From: a virus
Direction: 5' to 3' (one strand)
Length of the DNA: 20,746 bases
IMG/VR virus record: IMGVR_UViG_3300025120_000712
Location: 1 to 20,746 of that record
Part shown: positions 4,969 to 15,831 of the stretch, in pieces
Numbering within the stretch: position 1 is the stretch's first letter
Layout: each line of letters opens with the position of its first letter
Made by a program: the position numbers and the translations under genes
Notes under the pieces: generated by a model
Seen by the model: only the letters and a program-made list of their open reading frames with translations
Database searches by the model: none
Told to the model about the DNA's origin: nothing

Positions 4969-6042
4969 ATGGCATCAGCATACTCAACAGATCTAAAATT
5001 AGAGCTAATGGTAACAGGGGAAAACTCTGGTACATGGGGTGATAAAACAAACACAAATTTAAACTTAGTACAACAAGCAATTGCAGGTTATGAAGCAATA
5101 GATGTTGCATCAGCAAATGTAACTTTAGCAATGACAAACGCAACTTTGTCAAACGCTAGAAATATGGTTCTAAATCTAACAGGGACTTTAGCAGGCACAA
5201 GAGTTGTAAACGTTCCAGATGGAATTGAAAAAACTTATATCGTTGCAGACAGCACTACAAGAGCGGGTTATACATTAACTATTAAAACTGTATCAGGTAC
5301 AGGTGTAGCAATTCCAGCAGGTAAAACAGTTTTAGTTTTTGCTGATGGCACAAATGTTGTTGACGTGTTCTTTATGAAAGATTTAGTAGAAGACACTACT
5401 CCTCAATTAGGTGGTAACTTAGATGCTAATGGAAATAATATTTTAATTGATAACGGAAACTTCATCGGTGATGAAAATGGTTTAGAGCAAGTTAAATTTG
5501 CAACTACTGCATCAGCAGTAAATGAATTGACAATTACAAATGCAGCAACAGGTAATGCACCTGAAGTATCAGCAACAGGTGGAGACACTAATATTGATTT
5601 TAATATTACACCAAAAGGAATTGGCAGAGCAACTTTCAACGGTCAAGGTAAAATTCAAAGTGTTGCAGAAAAAGTTACAACTGAAGCAACGGCTGCTACA
5701 GGAACTGTTAACTATGATGTTTTAACACAAGCAGTATGGAATTTCACAACAAATGCCTCAGGTAACTGGACTTTAAATGTTAGAGGTGATGGATCAAACA
5801 CATTGGACTCAATCATGGATACAGGTGAATCTATTACAGTAGCGCACATTGTTTCTCAAGGTGCGACAGCTTACTATAATAATGCTTTTACAATTGATGG
5901 ATCAAGTGTTACTCCAGAATGGCAAGGCGGATCAGCCCCCACTGAAGGTAATGCAAGTTCATTAGATACATATACATATACAATTATTAAAACTGCAAGC
6001 GCAACGTTTACAGTTCTTGCATCGCAAACACAGTTTGCATAA
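4969..6042 (+). CDS. Tail fibre-like structural protein
   Basis: The 357-residue protein begins MASAYSTDLKLELMVTGENS and continues GTWGDKTNTNLNLVQQAI, a start I recognise from many phage fibre-like proteins. Beta-rich sequence follows, with VVNVPDGIEKTYIVAD and a region LVEDTTPQLGGNLDANGNNI (about 144-163), a motif common in fibre shafts and tail-spike repeats. Threonine, asparagine and alanine are abundant and cysteine is absent, typical of extracellular fibres. AAAGGA at 4955-4960 serves as ribosome binding site. It precedes the glycine-rich fibre gene, so the two may form shaft and tip. The receptor is unknown. Confidence 0.65.
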   Translation: MASAYSTDLKLELMVTGENSGTWGDKTNTNLNLVQQAIAGYEAIDVASANVTLAMTNATLSNARNMVLNLTGTLAGTRVVNVPDGIEKTYIVADSTTRAGYTLTIKTVSGTGVAIPAGKTVLVFADGTNVVDVFFMKDLVEDTTPQLGGNLDANGNNILIDNGNFIGDENGLEQVKFATTASAVNELTITNAATGNAPEVSATGGDTNIDFNITPKGIGRATFNGQGKIQSVAEKVTTEATAATGTVNYDVLTQAVWNFTTNASGNWTLNVRGDGSNTLDSIMDTGESITVAHIVSQGATAYYNNAFTIDGSSVTPEWQGGSAPTEGNASSLDTYTYTIIKTASATFTVLASQTQFA

Positions 6043-6060: not shown

Positions 6061-6915
6061 ATGCCAATTCTAGGTTCAAGAGGCGCAGGATCAGCAGCAG
6101 GATTTGGCCAACGTAATGGCGGCGCTGGTGCTATTGAAGTAAATTATTTAATTGTCGCTGGAGGCGGCGGAGGTGGTACAAACTACGCAGCAGGCGGAGG
6201 AGCTGGAGGAGCTAGAATTTCTTTCGACTCTCCAATATCTTCTGATGAACCTATTCTTTTAAATACAGGTAATACATATACAGTTTCTATTGGAGGCGGA
6301 GGTGGAACTTCTGGTTCTGGTAGTGCTTCTGGTATTTCCGGAGGAGATTTAGCTGCACCTTTTGAATCTACCGGTGGTGGAAGAGGAGCCGGTGCTAGTA
6401 GTCCATCAGCAGCTCCAGGCGGATCTGGAGGCGGCGGCGGAGGTACTGGAAACGCTGGAAGTTATACTCCATCTGAAGGTAATGATGGAGGTACATCACC
6501 AAGAGGTGGCGGTGGTGGAGCAACTACTGTTGGCGGATCAGCCCCAGCTGATAGACCAGGAGGAACAGGGCTTACATCTAGTATAACAGGTTCATCTGTC
6601 ACTTATGCTGGCGGCGGTGGCGGCGGTGGATATATTCACGGCCAACCCCCTGGACCAGGAGGCTCTGGCGGAGGAGGCTCTGGCGGAGGTCAAGGATCTG
6701 GAGGAAGTCCAGGAACTGGCGCTCTCGGCGGCGGCGGCGGAGGCGGCGGCGGTGACGGCGGAGGAGGATCTTCAGGAGGAGATGGAGTAATCGTTTTAAG
6801 TGCACCTTCTGATTATACATGGACAGTCGCACCTGGAACTAACACTACAAGTACAGCTCCAGACGGAAGAAAAATTGCTAGATTCACAGTATCAGGAACG
6901 GCGGAGATATCTTAA
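6061..6915 (+). CDS. Glycine-rich tail fibre/adhesin protein
   Basis: The 284-residue protein has a short non-glycine start, then VNYLIVAGGGGGGTN (28-41), the usual entry to glycine-rich phage fibre domains. From about residue 33 to 240 it is dominated by polyglycine runs separated by short turns, as in polyglycine-helix sandwich adhesins. It ends with a beta-type cap including GDGVIVLSAPSDYTW. Such domains form packed polyglycine helices whose connecting loops bind receptors. AGGAGG at 6044-6049 precedes the start. The GGC/GGA codon runs make this the most GC-rich stretch here. Its stop overlaps the next start. Glycine-rich fibre is secure; receptor-binding tip is inference. Confidence 0.7.
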   Translation: MPILGSRGAGSAAGFGQRNGGAGAIEVNYLIVAGGGGGGTNYAAGGGAGGARISFDSPISSDEPILLNTGNTYTVSIGGGGGTSGSGSASGISGGDLAAPFESTGGGRGAGASSPSAAPGGSGGGGGGTGNAGSYTPSEGNDGGTSPRGGGGGATTVGGSAPADRPGGTGLTSSITGSSVTYAGGGGGGGYIHGQPPGPGGSGGGGSGGGQGSGGSPGTGALGGGGGGGGGDGGGGSSGGDGVIVLSAPSDYTWTVAPGTNTTSTAPDGRKIARFTVSGTAEIS

Positions 6916-7358
6916 TGAAAACATTTGCTAAATTAGATGAAAATAATGTTGTACTAGAAATTATTGTAGTAGATAATGAAGCTTGTTCTGTAGATATGGC
7001 TATAGAAGGAGAAACATATTGTCAAAATTTATTTAATGGAGGGGTTTGGAAACAAGCTAGCCCTGAGGGATCTTTTAGAAAAAGATATGCTCAAGTAGGA
7101 GGTACTTATGATCCTGTAAATAATGTATTTATAGATGCTAAACCTTTTGATAGTTGGACATTAGATAATGACTTTAAATGGCAAGCACCAGTAACTTATC
7201 CAAATAATAAAGATTTTCCACATAATAATGAAACTGGTTTACCTGATGTTTATCCTATTTCATGGGATGAAGAAAATCAAAGATGGCTTGGAACTGCAAG
7301 AGAATCACAAGAAAATCTAGTTTGGAATACTAATACTTTTTCTTGGGAAGTATTGTAA
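6915..7358 (+). CDS. Conserved fibre-associated protein, unknown function
   Basis: The 147-residue protein starts MKTFAKLDENNVVLEIIVVD and contains FRKRYAQVGGTYDPVNNVF (54-72) followed by IDAKPFDSWTLD (73-84). The Y...G..YD...F...KPF.SW.L pattern is one I associate with proteins near tail-fibre genes in marine cyanophages and related phages. Tryptophans recur in the C-terminal third (SWDEENQRWLG). It is coupled to the glycine-rich fibre gene by TAATG. A fibre chaperone or accessory tip protein is possible, but nothing shows this directly. It is the last gene before the AT-rich cargo cassette. Confidence 0.6.
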   Translation: MKTFAKLDENNVVLEIIVVDNEACSVDMAIEGETYCQNLFNGGVWKQASPEGSFRKRYAQVGGTYDPVNNVFIDAKPFDSWTLDNDFKWQAPVTYPNNKDFPHNNETGLPDVYPISWDEENQRWLGTARESQENLVWNTNTFSWEVL

Positions 7359-7382: not shown

Positions 7383-7399
7383 ATATCTATATAGATATG
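7373..7399. promoter_or_regulatory. Two abutting palindromes, the second covering the first cargo start codon
   Basis: GTTATATAAC (7373-7382) is a perfect 10-bp palindrome. CATATCTATATAGATATG (7382-7399) is a perfect 18-bp palindrome sharing base 7382. The ATG of the first dioxygenase gene is its last three bases. As DNA it could be an operator; as RNA it could fold into a hairpin holding the start codon. Either role is inference, but the symmetry is exact. Confidence 0.5.
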
Positions 7400-8023
7400 A
7401 ATGTACAATGGAAATATTGGTATTTTGACAAAGCTCTTTCAAAAAAAGAATGTCATAAAATTATAAAACATAGTCTTTCTAAAAAAAATAGAACAGCAAG
7501 GACATTTGGTTTAAATAAAAAAAGATTATCCGGTAAAGAGATAAAAGATTTGAAAAAACGTAGAGATTCAAATATTATCTGGTTAAGGGATAAGTGGTTA
7601 ATTGATAGAATTAGACCTTATATAAACATAGCTAATTCCAACTCTGGTTGGAATTTTGAAATTAGTTCCATAGAAGATATTCAATTTACAATATATAAAA
7701 AAAATCAACATTATAACTATCATCAAGATAGCAGTTTTGTACCTTATGATCGTTCAGATAATATTCATCTTCATGGAAAAATTAGAAAATTGTCTATGAG
7801 TATTTGTTTAAGTGATCCTTCTGATTACAAAGGCGGTGATTTTAAAATACTTACCCATGATATAACCGACCCCACTAAATTAAAGGAAATTGAAGTTAAA
7901 GAATTAAAACCCATGGGATCAATTATTGTTTTTCCTTCAGATGAGTATCATTGTGTTACTCCAGTAACAAAAGGTACAAGATATTCTTTGGTAGTTTGGT
8001 GTGTAGGAAAGCCTTTTAGATAA
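7397..8023 (+). CDS. 2-oxoglutarate/Fe(II)-dependent dioxygenase, PKHD/prolyl-4-hydroxylase-like
   Basis: The 208-residue protein carries the iron-binding facial triad of the double-stranded beta-helix fold: H109-Q-D111 in YNYHQDSS and a distal H185 in DEYHCVTPV, with R195 (KGTRYSLV) as the likely 2-oxoglutarate carboxylate ligand. SMSICLSDPSDYKGGDF (133-149) matches the PKHD-type hydroxylase strand-and-loop. The family couples decarboxylation of 2-oxoglutarate to oxidation of a substrate, often hydroxylation of proline, other residues, or small molecules. It is the first gene of the AT-rich cassette, its start lies inside an 18-bp palindrome, and there is no Shine-Dalgarno sequence. It is coupled by TAATG to the sulfotransferase. 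Family call strong; substrate unknown. Confidence 0.85.
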   Translation: MNVQWKYWYFDKALSKKECHKIIKHSLSKKNRTARTFGLNKKRLSGKEIKDLKKRRDSNIIWLRDKWLIDRIRPYINIANSNSGWNFEISSIEDIQFTIYKKNQHYNYHQDSSFVPYDRSDNIHLHGKIRKLSMSICLSDPSDYKGGDFKILTHDITDPTKLKEIEVKELKPMGSIIVFPSDEYHCVTPVTKGTRYSLVVWCVGKPFR

Positions 8024-8763
8024 TGAAAAATATATATTTTTTAAGTGGATTACCAAGAGCTGGAAACACCTTATTTGGATATTTATTAAATCAAAATAAG
8101 GATATAACGGTAACAGCAAATTCTATATTACCAAGTATTTTATATTCTTTATATAAATTAAAATTTGAAGAAAACTATTTAAATTTTCCAGATAAAAAAT
8201 CTTTTGATAATATATATATAAATGTATTAAATAATTATTTTAAAGATTGGAAATCAAATAATATAATATCCAGAGGACCTTGGGGAACTGAAGCTAACTT
8301 ATTTTTGTTAAAAAATATTATAAAAAAACCTAAATTTATAATTTTATATAGACCAATACATGAATGTATAAATTCTTTTATAAGTATAAATAAAATTAAA
8401 AAAGAAAATATAAATAGTTATTCAACAGAATTAATGTCTCTAAATGGACCTATTGGTAAATCCTTATTATCTATCAAAAATATTCTAAAGAAAAAAGAAG
8501 ATTACTTAGTAATACATTACAAAGAATTAATTAAAAATCCTGAAAAAGAAATTAAAAAAGTATTTAAATATTTAGATATAAAATATGAAAAATTAAATTT
8601 TAATGTAAAAAAACAATTTCAGGCGAATGATATAAAATATGATGATTCTATTTTTGAACAACCTATACATGAGATACGTCTTGGTAAAGTTAAAATGTCA
8701 AAAACAAAAAATTATTTAAGTAAATTTTTAATACAAAAATGTAAGAATGAAGATTTATTTTAA
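8023..8763 (+). CDS. Sulfotransferase-family protein
   Basis: The 246-residue protein starts with a P-loop-like 5'-phosphosulfate-binding motif, FLSGLPRAGNTLFGYLLNQN (6-25), close to the family consensus SGLPRSGSTLL. The second cofactor motif is FIILYRPIHECINSF (105-119), with R110 and S118 at the positions that usually contact the 3'-phosphate of PAPS. A helical C-terminus with YLVIHYKELIKNPEKEI (155-171) fits the family end pattern of Y..L..nP......i. Such enzymes move sulfate from PAPS to hydroxyl or amino groups of glycans, lipids or proteins. It is TAATG-coupled on both sides to dioxygenase genes. It is very AT-rich. The family is well supported; the acceptor and actual donor are unknown. 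Confidence 0.85.
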   Translation: MKNIYFLSGLPRAGNTLFGYLLNQNKDITVTANSILPSILYSLYKLKFEENYLNFPDKKSFDNIYINVLNNYFKDWKSNNIISRGPWGTEANLFLLKNIIKKPKFIILYRPIHECINSFISINKIKKENINSYSTELMSLNGPIGKSLLSIKNILKKKEDYLVIHYKELIKNPEKEIKKVFKYLDIKYEKLNFNVKKQFQANDIKYDDSIFEQPIHEIRLGKVKMSKTKNYLSKFLIQKCKNEDLF

Positions 8764-9356
8764 TGAACAGTTTTAAAGAAAAAGGATATTATTTAGAAAA
8801 AAATATAATAAGTAATGATCTTTGTGTTTTTTTATATAATTATGTAAAACTAAAATATAAGGTTTTCAATACTTTATCAAAGCATGAGTATATATTTTTA
8901 AAGAACACTGATTGGGGAGCAAAAAGTGATCACATGATGAAAAATACTTTTTGTGCATATGGAGATTTAGCAATGGATAACTTATTAACTAGTATTAAAA
9001 GTAAAGTTGAAAATATTACTAAATTAAAATTAAACGAAAGTTATTCTTATTTAAGACTATATAAAAAAGGAGATACTTTATATAGACATTTAGATAGAAA
9101 AGAATGTGCAGTTTCGTTAACTTTGAATTTAGGAGGACATTGGCCTTTTTATTTTATTGATAAAAATAATATTCAAGTAAAGGCAAACATAGCACCTGGC
9201 AATGCTCTTCTATATGATGGTGTAAAATTAGTTCATTGGAGAGAAGAATTAAAAGAAAAAGAATGTGTTCAAGTTTTTCTTCATTATGTAAAAAAAAATA
9301 AAAATAAATTTGATAGTAGGATTCATTTAGGTTTACCAAAAATTTTTGCAAATTAA
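8763..9356 (+). CDS. 2OG-Fe(II) dioxygenase-like protein, second type in the cassette
   Basis: The 197-residue protein contains YLRLYKKGDTLYRHLDRKEC (96-115), giving H109 and D111, then VSLTLNLGGHWPFYF (117-131), and a distal histidine in LVHWREELK (156-164, H158) followed by VQVFLHYV. The RH.DR..C..S.TLNLGG..WP....HWRE pattern is a recognisable subgroup of marine-phage 2-oxoglutarate/iron oxygenases and differs clearly from the PKHD-type gene at 7397. IAPGNALLYDG (143-153) is the usual strand before the distal histidine. It begins in a TAATG overlap and has no Shine-Dalgarno sequence. Iron ligands are intact, so activity is likely; the substrate is unknown. Confidence 0.8.
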   Translation: MNSFKEKGYYLEKNIISNDLCVFLYNYVKLKYKVFNTLSKHEYIFLKNTDWGAKSDHMMKNTFCAYGDLAMDNLLTSIKSKVENITKLKLNESYSYLRLYKKGDTLYRHLDRKECAVSLTLNLGGHWPFYFIDKNNIQVKANIAPGNALLYDGVKLVHWREELKEKECVQVFLHYVKKNKNKFDSRIHLGLPKIFAN

Positions 9357-9357
9357 A

Positions 9358-9963
9358 ATGATAAAAATTATTCCTAATATTATAAATAAAAAAGAACAAA
9401 ATTTATTAAATAAAAAAATACAAGATAATAATTTCCCTTGGTATTATTATGATAATGTTATTGAAGGAAGAGATAATAATTATAAAAAATATAAAAACAT
9501 AACTGAGACATACGCTTGGGTACATTCTTTATTTTTATTACCTAACGGTGTAAACTCTAGTTACTTTGATGATTTTAAAATCATTCTTTCTGAATTTGAA
9601 AAAAAAGAAAAAATAAAAATAAAAGAACTACTAAGAATAAGAATAAGAAAAACCTTTTATTGTAAAGGACACAATTTAAAAAAATATAATTTTCCTCATG
9701 TAGATTTATGTAATTTTAGTAATTATAAATCTTTACTTTATTATTTTGAAGACTCAGATGGAGATACCATATTTTTCAAAGAGAGATATAATAAACGAAA
9801 AAAATTTGATTTAACTAACTTAACTATTGATAAAAGAAATACACCAGTTAAAGGAAATGCAGTTTATTTTGATGGCGACATATTTCATGCAGGTAACTGT
9901 CCTGTTAATTACAATACAAGAACTGTTTTAAATTTTGATTTTAAAATAAATGAAAGTGTATAA
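9358..9963 (+). CDS. 2OG-Fe(II) dioxygenase-like protein, FPWYY/DSDGDT type
   Basis: I start this 201-residue protein at the ATG at 9358, just after the previous stop; an in-frame TTG at 9346 would add four residues but is less likely. Iron ligands are H114 and D116 in FPHVDLC and H177 in DIFHAGN, with R188 in NTRTVLNFDF as the probable 2-oxoglutarate ligand. The strand SLLYYFEDSDGDTIFF (125-140) and the N-terminal DNNFPWYYY (23-31) are features I recall from marine cyanophage oxygenases. It overlaps the next gene by 14 bases. The N-terminal FPWY block is shared with the following gene, suggesting an old tandem duplication. The substrate is unknown. Confidence 0.8.
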   Translation: MIKIIPNIINKKEQNLLNKKIQDNNFPWYYYDNVIEGRDNNYKKYKNITETYAWVHSLFLLPNGVNSSYFDDFKIILSEFEKKEKIKIKELLRIRIRKTFYCKGHNLKKYNFPHVDLCNFSNYKSLLYYFEDSDGDTIFFKERYNKRKKFDLTNLTIDKRNTPVKGNAVYFDGDIFHAGNCPVNYNTRTVLNFDFKINESV

Positions 9964-10426
9964 AAATTTTTTAGAAAAAAAACTTTTAAAAAAAATTCAA
10001 GACAGAGTTTTTTCACAAGATTTCCCTTGGTATTGGAGGAACAATATGGTTTATAATAATAAAGACCATTATTGGTTTAATCATGCTTTTTTTAATAATA
10101 AAAAAATACTATCTCCTCATTATAAGGAATGGATTGTTCCTATTATAAAGAAACTTAAATTTAAAGAATTAATAGAAGCAAGATGTAATATGATGACTAA
10201 AGAAAATTTTTCCTACACATCAGAATTACATATAGATTATGATATTAAGAATGGTAAGACTGCTATATTATATCTAAATACATGTAATGGAGGTACCTAT
10301 ATAAAAGAAAAAATGATAAATTCTGAAGAAAATAAAATTATTATTTTTCCCTGCAAAACTTTACATAGAGGTGTAAGTCAAACAGATGTAGATAGAAGAG
10401 CAATAATAAATATTAATTATATATAG
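9950..10426 (+). CDS. 2OG-Fe(II) dioxygenase-like protein, compact FPWYW type
   Basis: The 158-residue protein starts MKVYKNFLEKKLLKKIQDRV and carries DFPWYWRN (24-31). Iron ligands are H94 and D96 in SELHIDYD and H139 in KTLHRGV, with R149 or R150 in VDRRAIININY as the likely cofactor ligand. TAILYLNTCNGGTYIKEK (104-121) is the expected strand pair before the distal histidine. The protein is short for the fold, a minimal double-stranded beta helix, but all key residues are present. It overlaps the preceding gene by 14 bases and lacks a Shine-Dalgarno sequence. Relationship to the gene at 9358 is suggested by the shared N-terminal motif. Substrate unknown. Confidence 0.78.
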   Translation: MKVYKNFLEKKLLKKIQDRVFSQDFPWYWRNNMVYNNKDHYWFNHAFFNNKKILSPHYKEWIVPIIKKLKFKELIEARCNMMTKENFSYTSELHIDYDIKNGKTAILYLNTCNGGTYIKEKMINSEENKIIIFPCKTLHRGVSQTDVDRRAIININYI

Positions 10427-10428
10427 AA

Positions 10429-10527
10429 ATGAAATTTACTTATTATTACATTAATAATTACTTAACTAAAACTGAAATTAAAAAGGTAAATAAAGAATTT
10501 AATAAAACAGGCCCATGGTGGAAATAG
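10429..10527 (+). pseudogene. Probable remnant: N-terminal piece of another FPWYW-type dioxygenase
   Basis: An ATG two bases after the previous stop opens a 32-residue frame, MKFTYYYINNYLTKTEIKKV followed by NKEFNKTGPWWK, ending in TAG at 10525-10527. Its order of features (a short beta start, N-[YF]-L, a charged helix, then PWW) mirrors the N-termini of the genes at 9950 and 9358 (NFL...FPWYW). Nothing resembling the catalytic core follows in this frame. The next gene starts inside its last 13 bases and has its own complete N-terminus. The simplest reading is a deleted third copy; a short leader peptide coupling translation of the next gene is an alternative. Confidence 0.5.
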
Positions 10528-10991
10528 AAAACTTTATTTCTAATAAAGAAGCAAATTACTTTATAAATTTTCATAAGAAAAATTTTAATTTAAATAATCA
10601 TTTTTGTATAAAACATAGAGAAACAGAAATCATACAATGTAATTTAATATTAAATAATACTAAGATTAAAAAAATGAATAACCTCTTAAATAAATTTGTT
10701 AAAAAAATAAATAAAAAATATGAAATAAATTATTTTCAAATAGTAAAATGGCCAACTTATGGGTTTCAACTAAAACATGTAGATTTTGATATACACCCAT
10801 ATACTAGTATATTATATTTAAATGATGATTTTGAGGGTGGTAAAACTATAGTAGAAGATAAAATTGTCGAACTTAAAAAATGTAAATTAATAGCTTTTAA
10901 TGGGGATAAAATAGAGCACGAAGTTAATAAAATTACCAAGGGAATAAGGTACACCATGCCTTGTTGGTATAAATTAAAAAGTGAAATTTGA
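10515..10991 (+). CDS. 2OG-Fe(II) dioxygenase-like protein, prolyl-4-hydroxylase-like type
   Basis: The 158-residue protein begins MVEIENFISNKEANYFINFH, the usual helix start of prolyl-4-hydroxylase-like oxygenases. The iron ligands are H88 and D90 in FQLKHVDFD and H135 in KIEHEVNKI, with R145 in KGIRYTMPCW as the likely 2-oxoglutarate ligand. SILYLNDDFEGGKTIVEDK (98-116) matches the conserved strand and EGG loop. An in-frame stop upstream limits the start to about 10515. It overlaps the 3' end of the remnant frame upstream and the GTG start of the next gene. It is distinct in sequence from the other four oxygenases. Substrate unknown. Confidence 0.82.
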   Translation: MVEIENFISNKEANYFINFHKKNFNLNNHFCIKHRETEIIQCNLILNNTKIKKMNNLLNKFVKKINKKYEINYFQIVKWPTYGFQLKHVDFDIHPYTSILYLNDDFEGGKTIVEDKIVELKKCKLIAFNGDKIEHEVNKITKGIRYTMPCWYKLKSEI

Positions 10992-11298
10992 AAATAAATT
11001 AGAAAATATAGAATATCCTTCTAAAAAAGAATCTTGGGATATAGCAGGAATTATAAAAGGTCAAAATCGTTTTTACAAATTTGATACAAGACCTATACAA
11101 AAAACTAAAGAAGGTAAAATAGGTAAATATGGTTCCTTTAATACTAAAGCAGATAAAATAGTATTTGAATCTAAACAACAATGGATAATAGTTGATATTG
11201 AAGAACTTCACACTTATTTAAAAGAAAATAAACTAAAAGAGGTACATTTACAAGATTTGCTATCTAAGCTAGAGTGGAATATAATACTACCAAAATAG
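10981..11298 (+). CDS. Unknown conserved-looking protein at the end of the cargo cassette
   Basis: The 105-residue frame starts at a GTG (10981) that overlaps the end of the last dioxygenase gene by 11 bases. It contains WDIAGIIKGQNRFYKFDTRP (19-38), then GKYGSFNTKADKIVFES and QWIIVDIEELHTYLKENKLK (67-86), and ends LEWNIILPK. The mixture of beta-type and helical segments looks like a small folded domain. I recall similar QWIIVD.EELH sequences in marine phages without a function. No catalytic triad is visible. It might be an accessory to the oxygenases or independent. There is no ribosome binding site, so translation probably follows from the upstream gene. Confidence 0.6.
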   Translation: MKFENKLENIEYPSKKESWDIAGIIKGQNRFYKFDTRPIQKTKEGKIGKYGSFNTKADKIVFESKQQWIIVDIEELHTYLKENKLKEVHLQDLLSKLEWNIILPK

Positions 11299-11305
11299 CC
11301 TAATC

Positions 11306-11334
11306 TTTATAGATATACGCTTATAGTGTATAAT
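11306..11334 (+). promoter_or_regulatory. Candidate sigma-70-like promoter giving a leaderless tail-hub transcript
   Basis: TATAAT at 11329-11334 is a perfect -10 box, and TTTATA at 11306-11311 is a weak -35 at 17-base spacing. The expected start of transcription, about seven bases after the -10 box, coincides with the ATG at 11341. The inverted repeat TTATA-GTG-TATAA (11321-11333) overlaps the -10 box. Confidence 0.4.
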
Positions 11335-11340
11335 CCAAGC

Positions 11341-13260
11341 ATGTCATTACAAAAAGTAAACTTTCAACCAGGTTTTAATAAACAAGCATCGGACTCAGGG
11401 GCTGAAAACCAATGGGTAGATGGTGATTTTGTAAGATTCAGATATGGAATGCCTGAAAAAATTGGCGGTTGGACAGAAATTATGGACAAGAAACTTGTAG
11501 GAGCGGGCCGTGCTTCACATACTTGGGCTGATTTAGATGGTAGAAAATTCTTAGCTATCGGTACAAACAAAATTTTATACATTTACAATGGGGATGACTA
11601 CTATGACATTACACCTTTTGATGCAAATTTAGCAAGAACCGGATGTGACATCACTACAACTAATGGTTCAACAACGGTTACAATTACAACGCCCACGGCT
11701 CACGACCTAGAGCCAGGTGATCTTTTAACTTTTGACAATGCCGGATCATTTACAGGTGGTCAAACAAGTTATACAGCTACTGACTTTGATGATGTTTTAT
11801 TTGAAGTACAACTAGCACCTACTACTTCAACCTTTACAATTTTAATGCCTACTGCTGAAACAGGAACAGGCGCAACAAATGATGGTACTCTTGATAGTAA
11901 ACCTTACTATAAAATAGGACCCTTACAACAAGCCTTTGGTTATGGCTTTGGTACAGGTTTATACGGAGCTTCTACTTGGGGTACACCAAGAACTACTTCA
12001 AATGCGATACTAGATCCAGCTTCATGGTCTTTAGATAATTATGGTGAATTATTAATTGCAACTATCAAAAACGGAGCTACTTTCTCATGGGATCCGGACG
12101 GAGGATCAGGAATAGCAGCTAGAGCAACTATACTATCTGGAGCACCAACAAGATCTGTTATGAGTATAGTATCTGATAGAGACAGGCATTTAATTATTTT
12201 AGGAACTGAAACAACTATAGGTTCAGCATCAACACAGGATAAAATGTTTATTAGATTCTCAGATCAAGAATCTTTAACAGACTATACTGCAACCTCAGTT
12301 AACACTGCGGGTTCATTTAGAATAGATAGTGGTACCAAAATTGTAGGTGCTGCAAAAGCAAAAGATTACATATTAATTTTAACAGATACTTCTGCGTACC
12401 TTATGCAGTTTGTAGGGCCTCCTTTTACCTTTAGTATTAGACAAGTAGGTTCAAACTGTGGATGTGTCGGACAACATTCAATAGTATATGCTAATGGAGC
12501 TGTTTACTGGATTTCAGATTCAGGTGGTTTCTTTATGTTTGATGGTACTGTTAAAGCTTTGCCATCGCTAGTAGAAGACTTTGTATTTCAAACTAATGAT
12601 AATGCACCAGGTTTTAATTTTGCTAATGGTTCAGAAATAACTTATGCAGCCCACAATTCTTTATTTTCAGAGATTTCTTGGTTTTACGCATCCTCTACTT
12701 CAAGCTATATAGATAGACAAGTAACTTTTAATTATGCAGAACAAACTTGGACTACAAGTTCATTAGCTAGAACAACTTTTACTGACACTCACTTATTTGA
12801 TCAACCTATCGCTACAGAGTTTGATGTTAATTTTACACCTACAACACCAACAGTTCAGGGGGTATCGAACGGTGCAAGTAGAGTATTTAATCATGAAATA
12901 GGGACTAACCAAGTACTAGCGGATGGCACAACCACAGCTGTTCCTGCATTCATAACTTCAGGAGATTTTGATTTAGATGCTCAGGGTGACGGAGAATACT
13001 TTATAAAGCTTAGAAGATTTATACCTGATTTTAAATATATTAATGGTAATGCAAAAATTACAATAACAACTAGAGACTATCCTGCACAAACACAAGGAAG
13101 CTCTCCACTAGGGCCCTTTACAATTAACTCATCTACGAATAAAGTAGACACAAGAGCAAGAGCAAGACTTGCTGCAGTTAAAGTAGAAAATGATGGTTTA
13201 AATGAAAGTTGGAGATTTGGTCAATTTAGATTTGACATACAACCTGATGGAAGAAGATAA
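11341..13260 (+). CDS. Large tail hub/nozzle-like protein (P22 gp10-like or T7 gp12-like)
   Basis: I start this 639-residue protein at ATG 11341 (MSLQKVNFQPGFNKQAS); a GTG at 11326 would add five residues but lies over the -10 box. The N-terminus, with WVDGDFVRFRYGMPEKIGGW (about 26-45), is a familiar opening of marine-phage tail proteins. The body is beta-rich with repeated strand-turn patterns (FLAIGTNKILYIYNGDDYY; HLIILGTETTIG; NGAVYWISDSGGFFMFDG), consistent with a propeller-like tail nozzle. The end has a beta region with NAKITITTRDYPAQTQG and RFGQFRFDIQPDGRR. Such proteins extend the tail tube and retain packaged DNA. It resumes the structural operon after the cargo cassette. Family inferred from pattern, size and position. 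Confidence 0.6.
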   Translation: MSLQKVNFQPGFNKQASDSGAENQWVDGDFVRFRYGMPEKIGGWTEIMDKKLVGAGRASHTWADLDGRKFLAIGTNKILYIYNGDDYYDITPFDANLARTGCDITTTNGSTTVTITTPTAHDLEPGDLLTFDNAGSFTGGQTSYTATDFDDVLFEVQLAPTTSTFTILMPTAETGTGATNDGTLDSKPYYKIGPLQQAFGYGFGTGLYGASTWGTPRTTSNAILDPASWSLDNYGELLIATIKNGATFSWDPDGGSGIAARATILSGAPTRSVMSIVSDRDRHLIILGTETTIGSASTQDKMFIRFSDQESLTDYTATSVNTAGSFRIDSGTKIVGAAKAKDYILILTDTSAYLMQFVGPPFTFSIRQVGSNCGCVGQHSIVYANGAVYWISDSGGFFMFDGTVKALPSLVEDFVFQTNDNAPGFNFANGSEITYAAHNSLFSEISWFYASSTSSYIDRQVTFNYAEQTWTTSSLARTTFTDTHLFDQPIATEFDVNFTPTTPTVQGVSNGASRVFNHEIGTNQVLADGTTTAVPAFITSGDFDLDAQGDGEYFIKLRRFIPDFKYINGNAKITITTRDYPAQTQGSSPLGPFTINSSTNKVDTRARARLAAVKVENDGLNESWRFGQFRFDIQPDGRR

Positions 13261-13929: not shown

Positions 13930-14154
13930 ATGACACAAAAAACAGTAATGATTAATGGTAAAGAAGTACCAGTTATTCCAGCTAAGGCGGAAGAAGAAGT
14001 TAAGAATAAAAGAACAGGTAAGCTTTATGCTGACAAAGCTGAGTTTGATGCCGATGTGGCCAATAATGACACGGACACTTCTGCGGAGGATTTACAAATA
14101 AATCAAAAAATAACTGTTGCATCTATGAGTATCTTTGGTAAAACAAAGGTATAA
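13930..14154 (+). CDS. Small acidic/charged protein of 74 residues, unknown function
   Basis: The product begins MTQKTVMINGKEVPVIPAKA and has RTGKLYADKAEFDADVANND in the middle, ending SMSIFGKTKV. The V.INGKEV beta hairpin start and NKRTGKLYADKAEFDADV pattern recur in small phage proteins with no known role. An AAGGAA site (13917-13922) lies eight bases before the ATG. Its stop shares bases with the glycosyltransferase start. No motif suggests an activity. Confidence 0.6.
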   Translation: MTQKTVMINGKEVPVIPAKAEEEVKNKRTGKLYADKAEFDADVANNDTDTSAEDLQINQKITVASMSIFGKTKV

Positions 14155-15092
14155 TGCAACCAGCAGGCGGTACCGAACTACAACTAGCTTATCTTAAAAA
14201 ACACATCAACCAAGGTGTGTTTGATTCCGTACAAATCACTACTTCAGTTCCAGAAAAGATTCCATTAGATCCTATTAAATCAAATATTCTTTGGCAGAAA
14301 AATTCTTACGATCAACCTAATATTCATCCTTGGTTTAAAAATAAAGATAATCATTCTAAATATGATTGGTATGTTTTTAATAGTCATTGGAATTACGAAA
14401 ACTTTAGAAAACATTTTCAAGTACCTGAAGATAGATGCACGGTAATTAAAAACGCAATAGACTATGATGAGCTACAATTAAAAACAGATTTTACCCCAAA
14501 GCCTAAAGTTAAGATGTGCTATATCTCTACACCGTGGAGAGGTTTAGAAATAGCTTTAGCTGCTATGGATGCAATTAAAGATCCTGATATAACTTTGGAT
14601 GTTTATTCTAGTACAAAAATTTATGGTAAATCATTTGAGCAAAGTAACGATGATCAATACAAACCCTTATATGAAAAAGCTCAATCTTTACCTAATGTAA
14701 ATTACATGGGTTATTGTGACCATAAAACTTTAATGACTAAGTTAAAAGATTATGACGTTAATTGTTTTCCTAGTATCTGGGAAGAAACATTTTGTATCTC
14801 TGCTATGGAATCGTTAGCAGCGGGTCAGATTTTAATAACCACGGACCTCGGCGCAATACCAGAAACATGCTGCGAGTTTCCAATTTATATACCTTATACT
14901 CAAAACAAACCTAAATTATCAATACAATTAGCTGAATGTATTTTAAGAACAAAAGATATTTTAAAACAAGATTTAAGTAACGGACTTAAATTCCAACAAG
15001 AATATTATAAAAGATTTTATGATTGGAAATATATAGCAGGACATTGGGAAAACTTTTTGAAAGGAGCTATAAGTGTCAAAAGAAATAAATAA
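14154..15092 (+). CDS. GT4-like (GT-B fold) glycosyltransferase
   Basis: The 312-residue protein has GGTELQLAYLK (5-15), the usual N-terminal GG-x-E helix, WYVFNSHWNYENF (72-84), and the donor-side motifs ISTPWRGLE (124-132) and E211-x7-E219 in EETFCISAMESLAAG (210-224), followed by ITTDLGAIPE. The E-x7-E pair normally binds the nucleotide sugar in family 4. The N-terminus is short: the strand normally preceding the GG motif is missing, and an in-frame stop at 14139-14141 rules out an upstream start. It overlaps the next glycosyltransferase by 20 bases. It may glycosylate a surface glycan, virion protein or other acceptor; this is not determinable here. Confidence 0.82.
   Translation: MQPAGGTELQLAYLKKHINQGVFDSVQITTSVPEKIPLDPIKSNILWQKNSYDQPNIHPWFKNKDNHSKYDWYVFNSHWNYENFRKHFQVPEDRCTVIKNAIDYDELQLKTDFTPKPKVKMCYISTPWRGLEIALAAMDAIKDPDITLDVYSSTKIYGKSFEQSNDDQYKPLYEKAQSLPNVNYMGYCDHKTLMTKLKDYDVNCFPSIWEETFCISAMESLAAGQILITTDLGAIPETCCEFPIYIPYTQNKPKLSIQLAECILRTKDILKQDLSNGLKFQQEYYKRFYDWKYIAGHWENFLKGAISVKRNK
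15061..15066 (+). promoter_or_regulatory. Ribosome binding site deciding a GTG start
   Basis: AAGGAG lies six bases before GTG 15073, favouring this start over the in-frame ATG at 15103 for the second glycosyltransferase. Confidence 0.75.
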
Positions 15093-15831
15093 AAACCATC
15101 TAATGGTTTGCACACCTGTGCATTCAGACGTATCCATTCATTTTATGAGAGCTTGTTTAGACTTACAAAAGGAATGTATTTTAAATAAAACTAAAGTAAC
15201 ATTTCAATTAATGAAGTCTTCACTTGTAACACAAGGAAGAAACTTACTTACTTCTTCTTTCTTAAATTCAGATGCAGATCAAATGTTATTTATAGATTCT
15301 GATATAGAGTTTTCTACTAGATCTGTTTATAGATTATTTAATTGTAAGCATGAGATAAGTTTAATCCCTTACCCAATGAAACAGAAAACCGATAGTAAAT
15401 TTAGACAAGATTTTGAAGCTAGACCTGATGATAATATAAGCACCATGGGTATGTTATTCCCTATTGAGTTACCAGATACAAAAAATATTACCCCCGTAGA
15501 CGGTTTTATTGAGGTTAGAAAAGGACCAACAGGTATGATGATGATTAAAAGATCTGCATTTAATAAGCTTATTGAGCATTATAAAGAGTTAACAATAAAA
15601 CAAAAAACTATGATGAATGGGGAGTTAGTAGACAGACCAAATTACTTTAACTTTTTTGATACTTATTGGAGCCCTAAAGATAAAACTTACATGGGTGAAG
15701 ATTTCTTTTTCTGTAAGCTTTGGACATCTATTAATGAGAAAATTTATGCCTTAGTTGACGAAGAAATAAGCCATATTGGAGAACATCATTACACAGGTAA
15801 AGTTAAGGATGAGTTCTATAAAATTGGGTGA
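15073..15831 (+). CDS. GT-A fold glycosyltransferase (GT2/Anp1-like)
   Basis: The 252-residue protein opens with a Rossmann-like strand, HLMVCTPVHSDV (9-20), then TQGRNLLTSSFL (53-64), and a DXD metal site in MLFIDSDIEFS (71-81; D75, D77). Further family features are GPTGMMMIKRSAF (151-163), the acidic GED at 208-210, and a late HIGEHHYTG (234-242). Together these match phage glycosyltransferases of the GT-A type that use a nucleotide sugar and divalent metal. The start is a GTG with a good ribosome binding site. It overlaps the GT4 gene by 20 bases, so the two are probably made together and may act in sequence on one acceptor. Acceptor unknown. Confidence 0.8.
   Translation: MSKEINKNHLMVCTPVHSDVSIHFMRACLDLQKECILNKTKVTFQLMKSSLVTQGRNLLTSSFLNSDADQMLFIDSDIEFSTRSVYRLFNCKHEISLIPYPMKQKTDSKFRQDFEARPDDNISTMGMLFPIELPDTKNITPVDGFIEVRKGPTGMMMIKRSAFNKLIEHYKELTIKQKTMMNGELVDRPNYFNFFDTYWSPKDKTYMGEDFFFCKLWTSINEKIYALVDEEISHIGEHHYTGKVKDEFYKIG

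Follow-up and report, generated by a model that had tools for sequence, protein, structure and literature searches.

Pelagiphages of the HTVC023P type carry eight non-orthologous 2-oxoglutarate (2OG) oxygenase genes, often co-located, beside genes named 'ferrochelatase' (Wittmers et al. 2022, PMC9599517); 2OG oxygenases and a true ferrochelatase were regarded there as partner metabolic genes, and their origin could not be traced. Several 2OG oxygenases, a prnA halogenase and a carbamoyltransferase are described from T4-like cyanophage genomes as well, and the accessible part of that account reads them as serving nitrogen and 2OG modulation or DNA repair, drawing no link there to the exchange of tail genes (PMC3037559). 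Host-recognition modules consisting of a tail fibre and a chaperone are exchanged between distantly related Alteromonas phages (PMC10579305), and in the T2-type phages S16 and PP01 the receptor-binding adhesin of the tail tip, gp38, is a polyglycine protein (PMC12892980). Here we analyse a window of 20,746 nucleotides (IMG/VR virus record IMGVR_UViG_3300025120_000712, positions 1 to 20,746), in which five genes for proteins of oxygenase fold (oxA to oxE) and a sulfotransferase gene (SULF) lie between a glycine-rich tail gene with its small partner (GLY and p147) and a gene for a stabilization/tail protein (STAB). The enzyme genes are exchanged between phage backbones jointly with GLY and p147. 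We give about even chances to the reading that the cassette supplies the enzymes of a host-recognition module which HTVC023P-type SAR11 phages exchange, and that these enzymes would modify the tail tip.

The window belongs among the pelagiphages of the HTVC023P type. Its STAB protein matches those of the cultured SAR11 phages HTVC023P (55%) and HTVC027P (53%) over full length, and HTVC023P DNA aligns with it at 72% over 1.5 kb. An array and a STAB gene of this kind were also found in a Pelagibacteraceae single-cell genome, on a contig of 59.5 kb, which agrees with SAR11 as the host. Scanning genome contigs with a single protein gave matches on phage-like contigs only, in SAR11 and Maricaulis assemblies. 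As relatives, 80 loci (L numbers below) were fetched around STAB homologues and combined with three annotated relatives, and their open reading frames (ORFs) were classified by iterated profiles.

Where two loci share a STAB identity of 95% or more, the tail-fibre-like gene FIB (median identity 95%) and the two glycosyltransferase-like genes GT1/GT2 (98%) have been kept, whereas GLY (50%), p147 (42%), oxA (45%) and oxB (56%) were replaced. At the DNA level, the alignments of L025 and L037 to the window end at 6107 and 6119, respectively, and resume at 11124 and 11077; between these borders L025 does not align at all and L037 does so in two short stretches at about 66%. FIB of both loci is 94-97% identical to that of the window although their modules differ. 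The reverse situation is found in L102 and L103, which share the order GLY-p147-oxA-SULF-oxB-oxC-oxD-oxE with the window and are close to it in GLY (90%), p147 (94%), oxA (80%), SULF (96%) and oxB (97%), but not in FIB (68%). Locus L101 overlaps L102 for 3.1 kb at 99.8%, and its STAB is only 53% identical to that of the window. L001 and the window are almost identical from oxB to oxE, with a synonymous divergence (dS) of 0-0.025, as compared with 0.20 in STAB.

The same backbone therefore occurs with different modules and the same module with different backbones, and this double dissociation identifies one mobile module: GLY-p147-oxA-SULF-oxB-oxC-oxD-oxE moves between backbones as a unit of about 5 kb. 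Recombination borders are located in the 5'-terminal part of the GLY gene, whose first 16-20 codons or so stay constant and whose remainder is exchanged (left edge at about 6107-6119), and around the small gene sm that precedes STAB. Near-identical modules were found repeatedly in independent contigs, so the cassette is not a chance assembly. The ratio of nonsynonymous to synonymous divergence (dN/dS) is about 0.3 for oxA, oxB and oxC between L017 and L018, an approximate value since dS is near 1, and indicates purifying selection on the module genes. Taken over all 42 loci with p147 the association weakens (Spearman 0.33, from pairs that are not independent), and the module is thus reshuffled internally as well.

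The sequence-only reading of this DNA had placed a cassette of five complete, triad-bearing oxygenases and a sulfotransferase at 7397-11298, inside a tail operon, and the ORFs are indeed of this kind. The cassette that it recognised is real, although the exchanged unit extends to the tail genes GLY and p147, which it had missed. It had also taken independent occurrence at random sites, or iron sites not conserved among homologues, as grounds for giving up the cassette; the genes occupy one locus and their triads are conserved, so neither ground exists. Its suggestion that the two glycosyltransferases take part in the pathway fared less well: these proteins are 90-98% identical between phages with unrelated cassettes, and we rejected them as cassette members. 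They belong to the stable backbone, and nothing ties them to the cassette.

In relatives, oxygenase genes likewise fill the slot between the tail genes and STAB. The 39 complete slots, window included, contain three to ten oxygenase-family genes (mean 5.5), and the idea that five copies are exceptional was dropped; only two oxygenase-family genes in the fetched DNA were seen downstream of STAB. Enzyme combinations vary from phage to phage. Content is narrow and consists almost wholly of genes for oxygenases together with a halogenase, sulfotransferase, carbamoyltransferase and methyltransferase. Array ORFs of the window are complete and tightly packed, with several junctions overlapping by 1 to 14 bases. 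Their region has 19-28% G+C per gene against 30-53% in the surroundings, and median G+C across loci is 27% in the slot and 36% in STAB. A scan for promoters and terminators gave no signal above that of shuffled sequence. Within the superfamily of oxA, oxC, oxD and oxE, the pattern H-x-D...H...R/K is present in 198 of 273 ORFs, and many others carry an HxH variant; 34 of 53 such proteins, taken as a broad sample, match PF13759 and 13 match PF13640. A small family ('LTEQALYYG...'; L081:9549-10052, L083:9208-9711, L063:1669-2175 and L067:205-708) is grouped with the oxygenases by profile and has no clear iron triad; it is possibly a non-catalytic barrel near oxA.

The five proteins fall into four sequence families, as the sequence-only reading had counted at the least: oxA, oxC with oxD, and oxE separate at a BLAST E of 1e-10, and oxB stands apart in profile searches. 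Iron triads listed in that reading were recovered; the numbering in oxC depends on the start codon (H118/D120/H181 from TTG 9346, H114/D116/H177 from ATG 9358). Among homologues the H-x-D...H triad is invariant in oxA, oxB and oxE (five sequences for oxE) and nearly invariant in oxC/oxD. A basic residue 8-14 positions after the distal histidine, where 2OG is bound, is conserved in oxA (R195), the oxD family (R150) and oxE (R145). The oxB family has no conserved arginine or lysine 8-14 residues past the distal histidine, and Arg112 and Arg160 are invariant instead; we therefore name oxB an iron-oxygenase-fold protein.

Only oxA among the five passes the Pfam cut-off as an oxygenase. Profile comparison connects oxE to oxA with 98.5% probability, and oxC was assigned by its membership in the family of oxD. 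The comparison of oxB with oxA is weak (27% probability), so the oxB assignment rests on its structural model. AlphaFold models of oxB (36 sequences, predicted local distance difference test score, pLDDT, 95.6) and oxD (35 sequences, pLDDT 95.3) are oxygenase barrels (Foldseek E 8e-10 and Z up to 17.2 for oxB; E 5e-7 and Z up to 15.6 for oxD), a result in agreement with the expectation of the sequence-only reading. The top matches of both are 2OG oxygenases, prolyl hydroxylases among them. By its model, then, oxB is an iron-oxygenase-fold protein with putative use of 2OG.

PHROG profiles match oxB as 'ferrochelatase' and oxC and oxD as 'DNA endonuclease V'. Neither oxB as a ferrochelatase nor oxD as a T4 endonuclease V could be maintained: neither protein matches any Pfam family at E up to 1, and no ferrochelatase or endonuclease V entries were among the structural matches listed for the two models. 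The fold of T4 endonuclease V is helical. Since the oxB and oxD models are oxygenase barrels, the names of phrog_2954, phrog_3531 and phrog_274 appear to be misnomers for the families matched in this analysis, phrog_3531 being judged solely via its match to oxB. These names have spread in public records and in ecological papers (e.g., PMC11561400).

In profile searches oxA comes closest to PKHD hydroxylases and to the prolyl 4-hydroxylases of bacteria and algae (E 3e-16 to 1e-7), a group exemplified by PPHD, which acts on EF-Tu, and by PiuC. Scored as a PKHD-type hydroxylase, oxA reaches 63 bits, below the NCBIfam equivalog cut-off of 143; judged by these similarities it probably works like such an enzyme, and we do not file it as a member. 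The cassette oxygenases share the fold and the triad with prolyl 4-hydroxylases and PKHD proteins, whereas identity is low and the basic residue that usually binds 2OG is missing from oxB.

The sulfotransferase was correctly recognised from sequence as one of the 3'-phosphoadenosine 5'-phosphosulfate (PAPS) type, scoring 40.3 bits against Pfam Sulfotransfer_3 (cut-off 27). Its best PDB matches are the tyrosylprotein sulfotransferases TPST1/TPST2 (E 5.5e-6 and weaker). Tryptophan halogenases (PF04820, E 4e-102) occupy the slot in relatives and form a cluster of 14 ORFs; examples from SAR11 phages are L031:5851-7446 and L033:4575-6143. They match QhpG and LodB, flavoenzymes that act in the maturation of other proteins, below the cut-off. 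NodU/TobZ-type carbamoyltransferases are found in the same slot (cluster of 6 ORFs, e.g., L027:2089-3735 and L025:5514-7079), as are a methyltransferase and other sulfotransferases. The sequence-only reading had proposed a multistep or substrate-diversifying pathway in which hydroxylation creates acceptor sites for sulfation. Its diversifying part agrees with the way enzyme sets turn over and with the halogenase, carbamoyltransferase and methyltransferase genes in this slot, but a fixed hydroxylate-then-sulfate sequence is unlikely as a general rule, with a SULF-type sulfotransferase in only 7 of 84 records and changing enzyme combinations.

Arrays of the same families adjoin tail-fibre, GLY/p147 or neck genes in other phages, namely in the T4-like SAR11 phages HTVC008M and Mosig, in HTVC033P and in the cyanophages S-CAM8, S-MS29, Sf-FP1, S-RSM4, S-RIM44 and S-PM2, while that of syn9 adjoins a halogenase. 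The cyanophages thus resemble the window in the kinds of enzymes and, in the present analysis, in the position of arrays near neck and tail genes. T4-like cyanophage genomes reportedly contain a 'hyperplastic region', a term attributed to Millard in 2009.

The exchange of the array jointly with a tail gene suggests that the enzymes decorate a part of the virus that touches the host. GLY, with p147, would form the receptor-contacting tail tip; enzymes made together with the tail proteins would hydroxylate GLY and/or p147 at their side chains, which in certain phages might also be sulfated, halogenated or carbamoylated. Differing enzyme sets would then yield differently decorated tips, fitted to different host surfaces or evading host countermeasures. 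Relatives of oxA, SULF and the halogenase lend such a protein-modifying role indirect support, as far as their sequence similarities go, and the prolyl hydroxylases among the top matches of the oxB and oxD models point the same way. GLY is like gp38 in being glycine-rich, variable and encoded among tail-fibre genes, and its receptor binding is proposed by analogy; we know of no modifying enzymes in the T2-type gp38 system.

A number of observations weigh against this reading. The role of GLY as receptor-binding tip draws on its position, variability and the gp38 analogy, and co-transfer may be due to physical linkage rather than to joint function. Prolyl hydroxylases tie with small-molecule enzymes such as SnoN among the structural matches. 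In the 57-kb record of L078, a broken oxB remnant is all that is left and the oxA, oxC/D and mixed profiles have no match, which indicates that the array can be lost. In L058, L064, L069, L077 and L082, together with HTVC027P, the array is on the opposite strand and adjoins a different tail-collar gene. In the regions fetched from HTVC025P, Greip, Bellamy, Melnitz and HTVC104P, GLY-p147 pairs are not accompanied by oxygenases; the pair thus does not need the enzymes, and p147, which adjoins GLY in most phages examined, was rejected as an obligate partner of the array. Lone oxB-family genes are located in replication regions of the cyanophages Syn30, P-SSM7 and S-RIM14, next to Dam-type methyltransferase or clamp-loader genes (L108, L110, L114). 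This family therefore has more than one setting, and a DNA-related role is possible for its lone cyanophage branch.

As side observations, the remnant in L078 lies at 1788-1922, just upstream of STAB, covers profile positions 162-206 and contains one stop. The five loci with the opposite-strand array form a sub-lineage without GLY/p147, and several of them have methyltransferase and ParB-like genes.

The enzymes might act on the host rather than on the virion, by modifying SAR11 lipopolysaccharide, a lipid or a surface glycan, for instance against superinfection or re-adsorption of released phage, and they would travel with the tip since receptor and altered surface must match. Such surface tailoring accounts for the linkage to tip genes nearly as well as tip modification does. 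The carbamoyltransferase resembles NodU and the sulfotransferase, weakly, NoeE, both of glycolipid decoration, and two glycosyltransferase-like genes lie downstream; yet the latter belong to the backbone and do not covary with the cassette, and oxA is closest to protein hydroxylases. Genes in a tail operon are moreover probably expressed late, judging from their position, which would be late for surface remodelling. We regard this explanation as unlikely.

The linkage is explained less well by two further proposals. Were the slot a hot spot of recombination, flanked by conserved tail genes, the oxygenases could be hitch-hiking auxiliary metabolic genes that alter the 2-oxoglutarate level, iron or nitrogen signalling of the host, and their co-transfer with GLY/p147 would be incidental. 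Metabolic roles have been proposed for pelagiphages (PMC9599517, PMC11561400) and 2OG modulation for cyanophages (PMC3037559); the lone oxB-family genes elsewhere in cyanophage genomes and the loss of the array in L078 are compatible with this. The narrow enzyme content and the same kind of neighbourhood in unrelated phages are not expected from it, and up to ten different oxygenases per phage would be odd if the aim were 2OG consumption. We consider hitch-hiking unlikely. Hypermodification of DNA, in which oxygenases act on modified phage bases in the manner of TET/JBP and carbamoylation, sulfation or glycosylation follow, has a precedent in other phages, where sets of oxygenase, carbamoyltransferase and glycosyltransferase modify DNA. 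In some cyanophages oxB-family genes adjoin Dam-type methyltransferases, and a carbamoyltransferase is mentioned in cytosine modification (PMC8670742). No Tet/JBP family was found in a Pfam search up to an E of 1, however, the PDB match to Tet-like proteins is insignificant (E 0.33), and the location of the array and its exchange with tail genes are left unexplained; this role seems very unlikely for the cassette.

Features of the window and their relation to the exchanged module
Feature	Position	Strand	Remarks
FIB, tail-fibre-like (phrog_31104/phrog_5906)	4969..6042	+	backbone, left border of module
GLY, glycine-rich tail protein	6061..6915	+	36% Gly, Pfam Gly_rich_2, phrog_2295
p147, small Trp/Pro-rich GLY partner (phrog_7759)	6915..7358	+	start overlaps GLY stop
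oxA, Fe(II)/2OG dioxygenase, prolyl 4-hydroxylase (P4H)/PKHD-like	7397..8023	+	H109, D111, H185, R195 invariant
SULF, PAPS-type sulfotransferase (Sulfotransfer_3)	8023..8763	+	Pfam
oxB, iron-oxygenase fold by model (phrog_2954, apparently mis-named ferrochelatase)	8763..9356	+	H109, D111, H158 invariant
oxC, Fe(II)/2OG dioxygenase, family of oxD	9346..9963	+	TTG start; ATG at 9358
oxD, Fe(II)/2OG dioxygenase (phrog_274, apparently mis-named DNA endonuclease V)	9950..10426	+	H94, D96, H139, R150 nearly invariant
54-bp stretch between oxD and oxE	10438..10491	+	absent in relatives L001, L101, L102, L103
oxE, Fe(II)/2OG dioxygenase (phrog_2297)	10515..10991	+	H88, D90, H135, R145 invariant in 5 homologues
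sm, small protein directly before STAB	10981..11298	+	right edge of module at its start or inside, ~10986 to ~11124
STAB, P22-gp10-like stabilization/tail protein	11326..13260	+	backbone, right border of module
GT1/GT2, two glycosyltransferase-like genes	14154..15831	+	backbone, outside module

The 54-bp stretch lies within a short ORF (MKFTYYYINNYLTKTEIKKVNKEF...) and shortens the N-terminus of oxE. It looks like a recombination scar; BLAST matches that would derive it from another oxygenase gene were not significant. Searching the PDB with the GLY sequence gave no meaningful match.

The co-location of oxygenases in this phage group is already published. Three points appear to be new: two families are renamed, the genes keep almost constantly to one slot, and they are exchanged jointly with a glycine-rich tail gene. 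No such account was found in the literature searched, nor any paper combining tail fibre, prolyl hydroxylase and post-translational modification. Whereas 2OG oxygenases and 'ferrochelatases' have been interpreted as metabolic or iron genes (PMC11561400, PMC9599517), and phrog61 and phrog2954 were found enriched in seasonal marine phages (PMC11561400), the 'ferrochelatase' is here an oxygenase-fold protein, and the genes fill one slot that is exchanged with the tail gene. As in the Alteromonas phages, a receptor-binding module with accessory genes would cross divergent backbones, but the accessory genes there are chaperones or caps and here redox and group-transfer enzymes.

With the 'ferrochelatase' assigned to the oxygenase fold, the iron and heme story is removed, and the joint exchange of array and tail gene provides a concrete candidate substrate in cultured phages (HTVC023P, HTVC027P). 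That marine phages diversify their tips chemically too, each exchangeable tip gene bringing a combinatorial kit of hydroxylases, halogenase, sulfotransferase, carbamoyltransferase and methyltransferase, is put forward tentatively, as somewhat short of an even chance. If true, it would explain why ocean phages have a halogenase and as many as ten different oxygenases, and chemical modification would join the known means of varying the receptor-binding proteins of phages. A kit common to SAR11 podoviruses, T4-like SAR11 phages and cyanophages would then point to a native substrate for the many orphan halogenases and 2OG oxygenases that ocean phages carry.

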